From the NCBI GenBank assembly GCA_903896015.1, contig CAITWF010000030.1, positions 1 through 64,000 of the forward strand: DNA of 64,000 nucleotides. The letters run 5' to 3'. The notes beneath the pieces are model-generated. The model was not told the DNA's origin. It saw nothing but the letters and a program-made list of their open reading frames with translations, and did not search any database. Below, piece by piece: positions 1-3,696 of the stretch. This stretch comes from an uncultured Opitutia bacterium. Its GTDB lineage: Bacteria; Verrucomicrobiota; Verrucomicrobiia; Opitutales; Opitutaceae. A program made the position numbers and the translations under genes. Each line of letters starts with the position of its first letter. The stretch's first letter is position 1.

Positions 1-217
1 ACTGCGCAATCTGCGCCTGCACCTCGGCCAGCGGCAAGGGCCCGCGCTTCTTCGGGCCCGGCAAGGCGAGCGCGGGCGCACCCGCGCTCGCTCGCTGCCG
101 CCAACGCAGCAGTCGCCGATAACTCAGCTTCAGCGCCGCGCTGGCCGCCCGGGCGCTGACGCCCGTGCCATTTTGCAGTTCCTGGATCATGCGGAGGACT
201 TCGGGGATCGTCTGCGC
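1..217 (-). CDS. second integrase-like frame, partial (orfD, -1 frame)
   Basis: In the -1 frame after the slippery site, 72 codons are open to the window edge. The predicted protein has an HTH-like section (VSARAASAALKLSYRRLLRW) and then a linker with GPKKRGPLPLAEVQAQIAQ. From memory, this linker type precedes the rve catalytic core in a group of PVC-bacteria transposases. The catalytic residues would lie outside the window, so the integrase call is inference. If correct, the element carries two DDE proteins. Confidence 0.45.
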
Positions 218-537
218 TTTTTTTTAGCGCCCGCTCCCTCCATCGCCCGCAGGACGGCCCGGATCTCCGCCGTCTGCTCCGCGACTTTCAGCTTGGCTTC
301 GAGTTCCGCCACCTTCGCCGTCAGGGCCGTTTCCACCGGCGACACTTCCGCCGCTGGCCGCCCCGGGGCTTGATCTTCCAACTGACGCAGCATCGCCCCG
401 AGCCCCCGTTCCTCCCACTCGTAGTAGGTTTTCCGGGAGACCCCGAGCACTGCCGCCGCCTCCGTCACTGTCATCGCTCCGGCACGCACTTTCAGGATCA
501 CTGCCGCGCGCGCCCGCGCTGCCTGTTTGGTCTGCAT
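187..537 (-). CDS. HTH transposase subunit with frameshift site (orfC)
   Basis: A 116-residue protein with an N-terminal HTH (TVTEAAAVLGVSRKTYYEWE, residues 23-42) followed by a coiled-coil-like Glu/Ala/Lys helix around residues 65-95. This resembles OrfA proteins of IS elements, in which the leucine-zipper-like helix mediates multimerisation. It ends in Lys/Arg codons read from an A8 tract. A_AAA_AAG is in the correct register for -1 slippage, which would fuse it to the downstream integrase-like frame. Its natural stop also overlaps a downstream ATG (ATGA at 190-187), so translational coupling is the alternative route to the next frame. Confidence 0.65.
   Translation of the reverse strand: MQTKQAARARAAVILKVRAGAMTVTEAAAVLGVSRKTYYEWEERGLGAMLRQLEDQAPGRPAAEVSPVETALTAKVAELEAKLKVAEQTAEIRAVLRAMEGAGAKKKRRRSPKSSA
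217..225 (-). other. candidate -1 programmed ribosomal frameshift site (A_AAA_AAG)
   Basis: The minus strand has eight A residues followed by G. In the frame of orfC the codons are GCT AAA AAA AAG CGC, so the heptamer A_AAA_AAG is in exact slippery register. This is the heptamer used by E. coli dnaX and many IS3-type elements. Slipping back one base opens at least 72 further codons. No stimulatory stem was modelled. Confidence 0.55.
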
Positions 538-2038
538 GACTCACGGATTCGAGTCGCTCGGGGCCGCCGGTGCAACCTCCTGCAACTGCTCCAGTCGCGC
601 TGTCAGCTTCTCCCGGCCCGCAAGCAATTGCCGCTTCTGCAAGAGCGCCCGCAAGCGCGGCGACAGCGCCGCCCCGTCGGCCAGGTTCGTCCGGCTCTCC
701 AACGCCTGCAGCATCCCCTCCATCCCCCGTTCCTGCCACTGCTGCAGCGTCACGTAGTTGATGCCCATCGTGCGCATCACCTCCGCCGGTTTCACCCGCT
801 CGGTCCAGATTGCCAGGACCGCCTGCGCTTTCTCCGCCGCGGTGGGCGTCGCCGCGTTTGTCGGCCGCACCCGTTTCACCTTCGTCTTTTCCACCGTCGT
901 TTCCTTTTTCGAGGTCATAGCTCATCTCCTGATCGTTCACACTGAGTTTTAGTTTTCCTTTCTCCGCCTTCAGGACGACCGACTGGCCGTCCATCCGACC
1001 CACCAGATAAAAGGGCGCCTTCGGTTGGCCCCGCAGCGCCAGCTCCAGGAGGTTCTCCTGGATGCCGTGCTGGATCGTTTTCTTGATCTCCGAGTGGATC
1101 TCAAAATACCGATCCGCCGGACAGAGGCCGCCGATCCCCTGATGCGGCCGGCGATGGTTGTAGTATTTGACCCACAGGCGCAGGCGCTCCCGCGCCGACT
1201 CGAACGAGTCAAACTGCGCCCGGACCAAAAACTCCTGCCACATCGTCGCCCAGAACCGCTCCACCTTGCCGAGCGTCATCGGGTGCTGCGGCCGCGACAC
1301 CAGATGCGCGACCCGGTCCTTCGTGAGTTCGACTGCGAAGCGGCTTTTCCCCCGCCAGTTGGTATATTGCCGCCCACGGTCGGTCAGCATTTCCTTCGGC
1401 GGGTGGTATTCCCCGACCGCCACCCGGTAGGTCTCGATCACCGCCTCCGCCGTCGGGCTGCGGTACAGATCGAACCCCACGATGTACCGCGAGTAGTCGT
1501 CCATGAACGCCACGATGTAGGCGTATTTGCCGCCGAGGCGGAACGTGAACAGATCGCTCTGCCACATCTGATTCGGCGTCGCCCGTTCGAAGAACCGCGG
1601 CCGCGTCAGGTTGCGCCGGGCTTTCGCCGCCGGGTCCATCAGCTGCGCCTCGTGCAGCGTCTTACGCACCGTCTCCGGGCTGGCCTGGAGGAAGAACCAC
1701 CGCCGCAGCGCGTCGGCGATTTTCTTCACGCCGAACAATCGGTTCGTGCGTTTCAGCTCGACGATTTTCTCCAACACCGCAGGCGCAAGCCGGCGCCCCT
1801 GCTGGGGCGCCGGCTTACGCCGTAACCCAGCTTCGCCCTCTTTGCGGTAGTCCCGCACCCACACCGCTAGCGTGCTTTGGCTGACTCCGGTCTCTGCCAC
1901 CACGAGCGGTTGCGGGAACCCTTCCTGCACGTGCAACCGCACCGCCCTCAGCTTCTCGTCGAACGTATATCGACGCGTCTTCGGAGTGGTCCGCGGTTCG
2001 CGGACCACCTTGCTTTCCACTACCTCTTTCGTTTCCAT
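224..2038 (-). CDS. DDE transposase / integrase-core protein (orfA of the element)
   Basis: An rve/DDE transposase. Residues 25-65 form an HTH of the IS481/IS3 type. The integrase core follows with the triad D162 (QSDLF), D220 (TDRGRQY) and E260 (GKVERFW), and the usual YNHRRPHQ motif at 293-300. The ATG at 2038 is preceded by AAGGAG at suitable spacing. The open frame runs 604 codons, but everything after about residue 372 (downstream of ~920) is Gly/Ala/Asp-rich and lies over the next two HTH genes, so it is probably an unterminated GC-rich tail or non-functional overlap. The protein of biological interest is likely about 370-385 residues. The frame stops with a TAA that is part of the A8 slippery region. 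Upstream lies an RBS-masking hairpin. Confidence 0.8.
   Translation of the reverse strand: METKEVVESKVVREPRTTPKTRRYTFDEKLRAVRLHVQEGFPQPLVVAETGVSQSTLAVWVRDYRKEGEAGLRRKPAPQQGRRLAPAVLEKIVELKRTNRLFGVKKIADALRRWFFLQASPETVRKTLHEAQLMDPAAKARRNLTRPRFFERATPNQMWQSDLFTFRLGGKYAYIVAFMDDYSRYIVGFDLYRSPTAEAVIETYRVAVGEYHPPKEMLTDRGRQYTNWRGKSRFAVELTKDRVAHLVSRPQHPMTLGKVERFWATMWQEFLVRAQFDSFESARERLRLWVKYYNHRRPHQGIGGLCPADRYFEIHSEIKKTIQHGIQENLLELALRGQPKAPFYLVGRMDGQSVVLKAEKGKLKLSVNDQEMSYDLEKGNDGGKDEGETGAADKRGDAHRGGESAGGPGNLDRAGETGGGDAHDGHQLRDAAAVAGTGDGGDAAGVGEPDEPGRRGGAVAALAGALAEAAIACGPGEADSATGAVAGGCTGGPERLESVSHADQTGSAGARGSDPESACRSDDSDGGGGSARGLPENLLRVGGTGARGDAASVGRSSPGAASGGSVAGGNGPDGEGGGTRSQAESRGADGGDPGRPAGDGGSGR
541..918 (-). 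CDS. small HTH protein of the element (orfB)
   Basis: A 125-residue protein with a basic, Thr/Lys-rich N-terminus and a homeodomain-like HTH around residues 30-70 (the stretch EVMRTMGINYVTLQQWQERG), followed by a Leu/Arg/Glu-rich helical tail. The ATG at 918 sits inside the end of the transposase frame and has an AGGAG ribosome site 7 nt upstream, which supports real translation. It stops 3 nt before the ATG of the next HTH gene, so the two are probably translated together. The role is likely DNA-end recognition or regulation for the element; I do not recognise a named family. Confidence 0.6.
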   Translation of the reverse strand: MTSKKETTVEKTKVKRVRPTNAATPTAAEKAQAVLAIWTERVKPAEVMRTMGINYVTLQQWQERGMEGMLQALESRTNLADGAALSPRLRALLQKRQLLAGREKLTARLEQLQEVAPAAPSDSNP

Positions 2039-2039
2039 C

Positions 2040-2069
2040 GTAACACTCCTTCTTTCAATGAAGTGTTAC
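2040..2069 (-). promoter_or_regulatory. RBS-masking hairpin before transposase start
   Basis: A perfect 8-bp inverted repeat (GTAACACT / AGTGTTAC, 14-nt loop) ends one base before the transposase ATG. The second arm overlaps the AAGGAG ribosome site. Read-through transcripts from outside would fold and hide the RBS, as known for IS10/IS50-type elements. The regulatory role is inference; the repeat is seen directly. Confidence 0.5.
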
Positions 2070-2112
2070 CCAGTTTCGTCGCTAGCTTACGTCCATGATC
2101 TGGTAGTTAGCA

Positions 2113-2803
2113 CATGGATCAGAACCTGATTGGTGGCGAGTTCCCCACGGAAGGTGCCATAGTTATCCGTGCGATGAAGCAGACGGTATGTATCCTTGTA
2201 GAGGGTAGCGGGCTCGGTCTGAAAGTTGATGATGCCCGCCGGATTGGCGCTGCCGAAAAGAATCGAGTTGGCGCCGGCCGACAACGTAATGCGGTCGGTA
2301 TTGTAGCCGTCTGATGGCGGCATGTATTCGCCGACCGCCGAGGTGAAGAAATTGCGGCCGATGGATTCGGTAAAGATTCCACGGATGTTGAAGCGCTGGG
2401 CGCGGAACGGCCCGGACCCGTCACCCACGGCGACCTGACTCGATTCCTTCTCGGTGCTGGGCAGAAAATTCGCCAAGTCCATCACGTTCGAAATTCCGAG
2501 GTCGTTGATGAAATCCTTCGAAATCTCCGTAATGGACGCGCCAACGTCTCCAACGTCGGACCGCAGGCGCGTTCCAGCCAGGGTATCTTTGACCTTGTAG
2601 CCGGTCCCCGAGGTTTCGGTAACACTGAACGGCGAAAGTTCGACCACTTCCTCCGCCGTCTTCGCGGTAGGACTAGCCACAGGCGCCTGCTGCGCAACGA
2701 GGAGGAACGGAGTGAGGCACAGGCCGACACAAGCGGCTTTTGCCACAGTCATGGTTTTGGGCTGAAGGGGAAGGTTTCGTGGGGTTCCAATGGCGGATTT
2801 CAT
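2113..2803 (-). pseudogene. TonB-dependent receptor, 3'-truncated by the element
   Basis: The N-terminal about 230 residues of an outer-membrane TonB-dependent receptor: a signal peptide after a basic start, then EEVVELSPFSVTE (Ton-box region typical of Opitutaceae), and a plug domain with GTRLRSDVGDVGASI, FNIRGIFTE and ITLSAGANSILFGSANPAG. The frame matches the family until 'ELATNQVLI' and then enters the insertion element, ending at a fortuitous stop at 2087. The whole beta-barrel (normally 600-700 further residues) is missing, so the gene cannot make a functional receptor. The remaining part, if it survives, lies beyond the element's other end. Confidence 0.85.
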
Positions 2804-3130: not shown

Positions 3131-3433
3131 ATGGCAACTATTCAAATCCGAACACGCATCGATCGGAACCTGAAGAAAAAGAGCGACGATTTGCTGAAGG
3201 AACTTGGGCTAGATGCCGGGTCATTTGTCTCCATGGCGCTGACCCAACTCGTCAATCGTCGCGGGCTCCCTTTTGCGGTCACCGAGTCAGATGCGGGCTA
3301 CTTTGCGTCGGAATATGGGGTTACTGCCGCCCAAAGCATCAAGGCGGGCGCTGCCATGCAGCGGGAGAGCGACCGTGCTCGTCGCACGGGTAAACTGCGC
3401 GAGATTACCGAGCTAGCCGACCTCGCCCCATGA
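3131..3433 (+). CDS. RelB/DinJ-family antitoxin
   Basis: A 100-residue protein. Its N-terminal half (IQIRTRIDRNLKKKSDDLLK, then ELGLDAGSFVSMALTQLVNRRGLPF) is the classic RelB/DinJ ribbon-helix-helix DNA-binding module. The C-terminal half is a charged helix expected to wrap and neutralise the toxin. The start follows directly from the HTH/RHH alignment. The stop overlaps the next gene's start (ATGA), the standard arrangement for a type II pair. It probably represses its own promoter through the TGAGTCA repeats that touch its start codon. Confidence 0.85.
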   Translation: MATIQIRTRIDRNLKKKSDDLLKELGLDAGSFVSMALTQLVNRRGLPFAVTESDAGYFASEYGVTAAQSIKAGAAMQRESDRARRTGKLREITELADLAP

Positions 3434-3696
3434 AGTTGCTGGCGACGCCGCGCTTCCTGGCAAGCATTCCGGCTCACCGACGCGAGGAGGTATTAGCCGC
3501 CATGAGGGCTGCAGATGCCGCTTATGGCCAACCCCACCTGCACGCCGGGGTGGGGCTCAGACGCATCCAACCGTTCATGGAATGTCGCTGCGGGCTGGAT
3601 CTGCGGTTAGTTTTTCAGCGGGAGGGACAAGCTCTCGTATTCCACCTCTGCGGAACGCATGATGAGATCGAATCCTTCCTAAAGAACCGACGGTAA
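3430..3696 (+). CDS. RelE/ParE-superfamily-like toxin
   Basis: An 88-residue basic protein translationally coupled to the antitoxin. The pattern GVGLRRIQPFMECRCGLDLR, then LVFQREGQALVFHLCGTHDEI, fits the RelE/ParE beta-sheet core, where Arg and a C-terminal His/Glu contact the target. It would be a ribosome-dependent mRNA interferase or a gyrase poison; the sequence alone does not say which. The assignment rests on size, position after RelB/DinJ and the Arg-rich sheet. I did not see the exact catalytic set of E. coli RelE. Confidence 0.7.
   Translation: MKLLATPRFLASIPAHRREEVLAAMRAADAAYGQPHLHAGVGLRRIQPFMECRCGLDLRLVFQREGQALVFHLCGTHDEIESFLKNRR

Follow-up and report, generated by a model that had tools for sequence, protein, structure and literature searches.

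The window, by which we mean the whole stretch of DNA analysed, covers 64 kb from the start of contig C30, in a host genome of 4.96 Mb and 123 contigs. Its left part carries an element with four genes on the minus strand, in the order DDE1, HTH1, HTH2 and DDE2, which extends from its left boundary at 2114 to position 1. This amounts to approximately 70% of the full element; full-length copies measured 2961-3178 bp (n=6). As the first position of the window is also the first base of the contig, DDE2 is severed by the contig edge. The original prediction had placed an insertion element at 1-918; the feature is real, but that interval covers only part of it. The features are listed below in window coordinates, with labels such as L003 denoting the loci of relatives.

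2117-2803, minus strand: host gene interrupted by the element, TonB-dependent receptor as judged by eye
2097-2114, minus strand: left terminus (TGTGCTAACTACCAGATC...), 18 bases repeated in the host genome, with the element boundary at 2114
2060-2071, minus strand: inner terminal repeat GGGTAACACTTC, with an inverted copy near the right end of relatives
905-2038, minus strand: DDE1, IS481-like transposase, 378 aa of homology, D162, D220 and E260
541-918, minus strand: HTH1, 125 aa, conserved in relatives; Pfam HTH_23 match of the window copy weak and below cut-off
224-904, minus strand: continuation of the DDE1 frame, approximately 226 codons, a putative acidic tail overlapping HTH1 and HTH2 in a different frame
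187-537, minus strand: HTH2, 116 aa, conserved; Pfam HTH_29, HTH_23 and HTH_28 above cut-off
217-225, minus strand: A8-G slippage run, with A_AAA_AAG in the HTH2 register; in register in 25 of 26 loci
1-190, minus strand: DDE2, first 63 codons, the rest cut off by the contig edge; 77% identical to the DDE2 of L003 over 62 residues

The interrupted receptor gene has a 60% identical paralogue of 1013 codons on contig C62. Its own remainder had no match beside the four right flanks of the element (seven stretches, best tblastn E 0.30), so that left and right flanks could not be paired, and the gene had no match in one genome of the same genus. Deletion, rearrangement or an unassembled flank are all possible reasons for the missing remainder. 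Approximately 1 kb past the receptor gene, two short genes with a 4-base overlap lie on the plus strand at 3131-3696; on inspection by eye, they resemble a RelB/DinJ-type antitoxin and a RelE/YoeB-type toxin.

DDE1 is a complete DDE transposase, and the triad D162, D220 and E260 that had been read from the window was confirmed. The window copy matched the NCBIfam IS481 model at 1.3e-59 and 202 bits, just below the curated cut-off of 224, while the L003 copy scored 208.5 bits (below) and that of L017 239 (above). Against the IS3 model, with its cut-off of 160 bits, the same three copies scored 148.8, 153.9 and 162.1 bits, respectively; the match to Pfam rve was 1.1e-17, and the IS21 model gave 35.4 of 160 bits. 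DDE1 forms the front of a 604-codon open reading frame (ORF1, 224-2038), which overlaps HTH1 and nearly all of HTH2 in a different frame. The two small HTH genes predicted behind DDE1 were found at 541-918 and 187-537, and in the L017 relative HTH1 matched HTH_Tnp_1 above cut-off. Two loci depart from this arrangement. In L020 (1390-2409), from a Kiritimatiellae MAG, an extra HTH1-like gene brings the number of HTH genes to three. In L089 (G214:C259), HTH1 contains a frame break (by eye) that shifts most of the gene into the DDE1 frame; either sequencing error or a natural DDE1-HTH1 fusion may be the cause.

Of DDE2, the host assembly contains only the 5' piece in the window and four 3' pieces located at contig edges, a pattern that a multi-copy repeat would be expected to give. 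Since the DDE2 core is unassembled there, we infer the core of the window copy from relatives. The frame behind the A-run had been predicted to encode a second integrase-type protein, and rather than ending early without a catalytic core it leads in relatives into a complete, integrase-like DDE protein of approximately 340 aa. D124, D184 and E220 were invariant in all 17 hand-picked proteins aligned, among 24 invariant columns overall. By sequence, DDE2 is only a distant relative of integrase and transposase models. The Pfam rve match passed its cut-off for L003 (6.8e-10), fell below it for L010 (1.2e-4) and was unlisted for L017; scores against the IS481 model were 69.2 and 43 of 224 bits, and against the IS3 model L003 reached 53.7 bits (cut-off 160) with L017 again unlisted. 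An AlphaFold2 model of the L003 protein (pLDDT 83.6, pTM 0.68) has a retroviral-integrase core. Foldseek returned a best match at 3.8e-11 for this model, VIA-align gave Z scores of 15.9-17.2 over 138-204 residues among the matches listed, and the IstA structure 8b4h was also matched (E 2.5e-9).

We next consider how widely this layout is kept. A DDE1 search of a species-genome collection yielded 39 loci, and 43 stretches were examined, namely the window and 42 hand-picked loci, with L018 (identical to L017), L031-L041 (DDE1 matches only) and duplicates from whole-genome searches omitted. The four genes occurred in the same order in 26 of the 43, which bears out the synteny that the original prediction proposed to look for; the rest were contig-cut, fragments or a diverged Myxococcota set. 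Both HTH genes were found in all 26 loci counted, so that neither was absent from other copies. These loci are not independent, as L021 and L022 come from one MAG and several Opitutae copies are close, and the hosts are mostly MAGs whose taxon labels may be wrong. The element had been suggested to represent a little-described family in PVC bacteria, but it is not confined to them: hosts outside that group include Desulfosarcina widdelii and MAGs labelled Deltaproteobacteria, Chromatiaceae and Myxococcaceae. At E 1e-15, a DDE2 profile had matches in 11 of 387 genomes from the phylum to which the window belongs and in 7 of 395 from that of D. widdelii, the latter count including weak and partial matches, while a profile of the fused Myxococcota HTH2-DDE2 detected 3 of 377 genomes at 1e-20; a further count of 9 of 288 genomes was largely a resampling of the window's phylum. 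The L017 DDE2, used as the one query, had no match in plasmid or phage collections at E 1e-5. In IMG/VR, the DDE2 alignment gave 21 pattern matches with no confirmed relative among them, and the exact 18-base terminus had no match. Separately, the Acidimicrobiales chromosome OX638350.1 carries seven of the retrieved loci (L031-L035, L037 and L041), with plain IS481-like transposases approximately 30% identical to DDE1, some of them as two or three copies within 11 kb.

The overlap of the DDE1 frame with the HTH genes follows a fixed pattern. Relative to DDE1, both HTH genes are in the +1 frame in 25 of the 26 loci, the exception being L089, and they share a common frame in all 26 despite a gap of 0-45 nt between them (25 loci with start found). 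The same frame relation of DDE1, HTH1 and HTH2 holds in Myxococcota L026, L027, L028 and L116. In 21 of 26 loci, the open DDE1 frame comes within 100 nt of the HTH2 stop, whereas it falls short in L004, L012, L015, L089 and L092; in L020 it spans nearly all three HTH genes. Across the HTH genes of 24 loci, 15 stops occurred in the DDE1 frame compared with 85.3 +/- 7.0 expected from synonymous-codon shuffles, whereas the third frame held 236 compared with 227.7 expected. L020, with its extra HTH gene, and L089, with its frame break, were omitted from the tests on stops, T-ending codons and charge, and all shuffles and permutations take loci as independent though they are related. Most of the stop-avoidance signal came from loci of 42-64% G+C; in G+C-rich copies, that of the window among them, an open tail frame is by itself unremarkable (window P 0.40).

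Two readings of this open frame were weighed, a translated acidic tail on DDE1 and a purely translational role. Under the latter, which we regard as possible though the less probable of the two, the frame would be kept open, for example, to let ribosomes reach the DDE2 start region or to sustain expression of the message, and no tail protein would be involved. The codon data speak for it: T-ending codons of HTH1 and HTH2 were strongly avoided only where they would form stops, that is, before AA, AG or GA (14 compared with 126.9 expected), and far less elsewhere (333 compared with 373.1; controls, 215 compared with 277.1 in DDE1 and 227 compared with 256.4 in DDE2). Third-base excess in HTH1 and HTH2 was likewise only slightly above that in DDE1 and DDE2, and in two of four divergence bins, so that strong selection at the level of residues was unsupported (L089 omitted). 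However, the tail carries a net negative charge in each of the 24 loci, and its net charge of -394 is more acidic than the -205.5 predicted by synonymous shuffles (mean z -2.0). The -1 frames of the controls gave a weaker negative shift for DDE1 (mean z -0.72) and +0.5 for DDE2; the window was omitted from the DDE2 rows of both the charge-shuffle and the third-base test. Moreover, in Myxococcota L026, L028 and L116, ORF1 likewise stops close to where HTH2 passes into DDE2, even though DDE2 lacks a separate start there. We therefore lean moderately towards a translated acidic tail.

We then turned to the ends of the element. Four sites in the host genome carry an exact copy of the 18-base terminus TGTGCTAACTACCAGATC; their outer flanks all differ, and the element sequence inside is the same. 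On four further contigs, a right end (...GGCAGCACA) lies close to the contig edge; the host genome thus carries at least four insertions. On the closed chromosome of Desulfosarcina widdelii, two copies are identical over 2961 bp and have unrelated flanks. Terminal repeats and target duplications had both been proposed as checks. Imperfect inverted repeats were found: an outer repeat at both ends, and an inner GGGTRACACT repeat at both ends in most copies, its right member in Opitutae copies lying inside the 3' end of DDE2. No clear target duplication was seen. None of at least 4 bp abutted the ends of the six measured copies, none longer than 2 bp was present in the 16 possible left/right pairings of host-genome ends, and inspection by eye revealed none in L012, L088 or L095 and an abutting 3-bp TTC in L011. 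Since no empty insertion site was found, this lack is an observation short of proof. Candidate 4-bp duplications offset by 0-3 nt from the ends, suspected by eye (GATC, ATCA and AAGC in some pairings of the host's own genome, GTTA in L003), are not claimed here because the pairing had been picked post hoc and the flanks could not be matched up. As observations in their own right, several left/right flank pairs of the host share 4-bp words slightly off the ends, and an A lies just outside the element at all four host right ends (L069-L072).

These ends also bear on which genes belong to the element. It could be that DDE1 alone mobilises it, with HTH1, HTH2 and DDE2 being regulators or a trapped second insertion sequence that is now co-inherited. 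DDE1 is indeed better conserved than the other three genes (lowest pairwise identity 0.36, compared with 0.22-0.27) and scores near the IS481 cut-off, and some loci have DDE1 only, yet these are fragments, contig-cut or plain IS481 relatives. We consider this explanation unlikely given that the DDE2 triad is invariant, that the position of the right inner repeat in Opitutae copies means that the outer ends bracket all four genes, and that divergence runs in parallel across all four genes (Mantel r 0.62-0.81; 24 loci, L089 and the window omitted).

How DDE2 is expressed may depend on the A-run near the 3' end of HTH2. In the window, this A8 run reads as T8 at 218-225 on the plus strand, and A_AAA_AAG occupies 217-223 with HTH2 codons GCT AAA AAA AAG, confirming the exact slippery register that had been claimed. 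The -1 frame behind it is open to the window edge as described, but for 74 codons instead of 72. The site is kept in relatives: an A8 or A9 run has the exact heptamer register in 25 of 26 loci, L088 being the exception with AAA AAA GGC only and no full slippery run. From the run onwards, the DDE2 frame is open in all 26, lying at -1 relative to HTH2 in 12 and at +1 in 14. AAA makes up 0.45-0.48 of the lysine codons of DDE1 and DDE2 in the window, L003 and L008, and only 0.18-0.21 in L005, L007, L009 and L012, where the run is still kept. In Myxococcota L026 (428 aa to the contig edge), L028 (490 aa) and L116 (500 aa), HTH2-DDE2 is a single open reading frame, and chiefly on account of these natural fusions we take the fusion to be functional. 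It is not forced, since most loci also offer DDE2 a separate start codon close to the run. Two further Myxococcota loci differ in detail: L117 keeps the gene order but has a break in the HTH2 frame, and L027 stops before DDE2.

Runs of A8-A9 in insertion elements are described by Baranov and colleagues as serving to make fusions by slippage (PMC1088944), and the A9 run of IS1447 is reported to slip both ways, with +1 yielding the full transposase (PMC6211511). Mixed directions at poly-A within one transposase family are linked to transcriptional realignment in the account of Antonov and colleagues (PMC3711429). Because relatives differ in the shift needed, -1 for some and +1 for others, slippage by RNA polymerase appears more likely than slippage by the ribosome, although the A8-G site of the window copy would equally suit -1 ribosomal frameshifting. 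A fusion of DDE1, its tail and DDE2 by slippage from the DDE1 frame was rejected as not general, ORF1 passing the A-run only in L014 and L017. The ATGA overlap of the HTH2 TGA (187-189) with the DDE2 ATG (188-190), raised originally as a simpler alternative to frameshifting, proved insufficient, as it is confined to some loci (the window, L003, L004, L005 and L008, with separate start codons in others) whereas the A-run and an open path into DDE2 occur in nearly all. That there is no recoding at all, with DDE2 translation beginning at a separate start codon, coupled to the termination of HTH2, and the A-run encoding only a lysine tail, would suit these start codons but is highly doubtful in view of the run staying in register although AAA is a minority lysine codon in many loci, the open frame in every locus, the Myxococcota fusions, and L011 and L013, which by eye lack an ATG separating the run from conserved DDE2.

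Taking the sequence comparisons together, we think it reasonably probable that this is an autonomous bacterial insertion sequence of about 3.0-3.2 kb with a two-transposase system, in which slippage produces an HTH2-DDE2 fusion. HTH2 alone would be an OrfA-like DNA-binding or regulatory protein, presumably made in excess and binding the element ends. Slippage at the A-run would add a smaller amount of HTH2-DDE2 as the second transposase, comparable to OrfAB in IS3. The first, partner transposase would be DDE1, whose acidic tail would be encoded by overprinting of HTH1 and HTH2, and the two transposases might act together on two similar but unequal ends. More tentatively, the element may constitute a distinct transposon class, with a two-DDE transpososome, the overprinted acidic tail, a slippage-made HTH2-DDE2 and insertion without the usual target duplication.

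The common view is that a simple insertion sequence requires one DDE transposase. With two of them retained, the present element would allow a test of whether DDE enzymes can function in dedicated pairs. Its nested, frame-locked layout, present in Verrucomicrobiota and Lentisphaerae MAGs, Desulfosarcina and Myxococcota, is also a clear example of extensive coding overlap on one strand of bacterial mobile DNA. Moreover, fused (Myxococcota) and slippage-dependent versions of one protein are available for comparison. Among the literature titles listed, 10-20 for the larger result sets, no element with two DDE and two HTH genes was seen; the subscription literature lay mostly outside the scope of the search. 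The element may be a little-known kind of mobile element, though an existing ISfinder entry is possible.

Comparison with known systems shows both likenesses and differences. Its likeness to IS481 lies in DDE1, which has an IS481-type HTH and an rve core and finds its best match in the IS481 model (1.3e-59), and in ends that begin with TGT. However, in IS481 elements a single transposase gene makes up the element, whereas here two DDE and two HTH genes occupy approximately 3 kb. IS481 target duplications are given as mostly 6 bp, with a range of 2-15 (PMC10045372), compared with no clear duplication in this element. The IS3 likeness is one of sequence layout only, HTH2 being followed by an integrase-type DDE2 frame behind an in-register A-run. 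In contrast to this element, with DDE1 present upstream in 26 loci, IS3 has a single OrfAB transposase and no further DDE gene; HTH1 also lies upstream, and DDE2 falls far below the IS3 model cut-off. The shift required, -1 in some relatives and +1 in others, sets the element apart from both IS3 and IS1447. As originally proposed, the layout is not the standard one of IS481 or IS3, and we file the element under neither because it has two DDE genes and because DDE2 falls below both cut-offs. Multi-gene transposition is known from Tn7, and the element resembles IS21 (IstA/IstB) and Tn7-like systems in having more than one transposition gene and in the match of the DDE2 model to IstA (8b4h). No ATPase family occurred among the Pfam matches of the four proteins, so that the IstB-type ATPase of IS21 has no counterpart among them; unlike in IS21 and Tn7-like systems, both large proteins of the element are integrase-type DDE enzymes.
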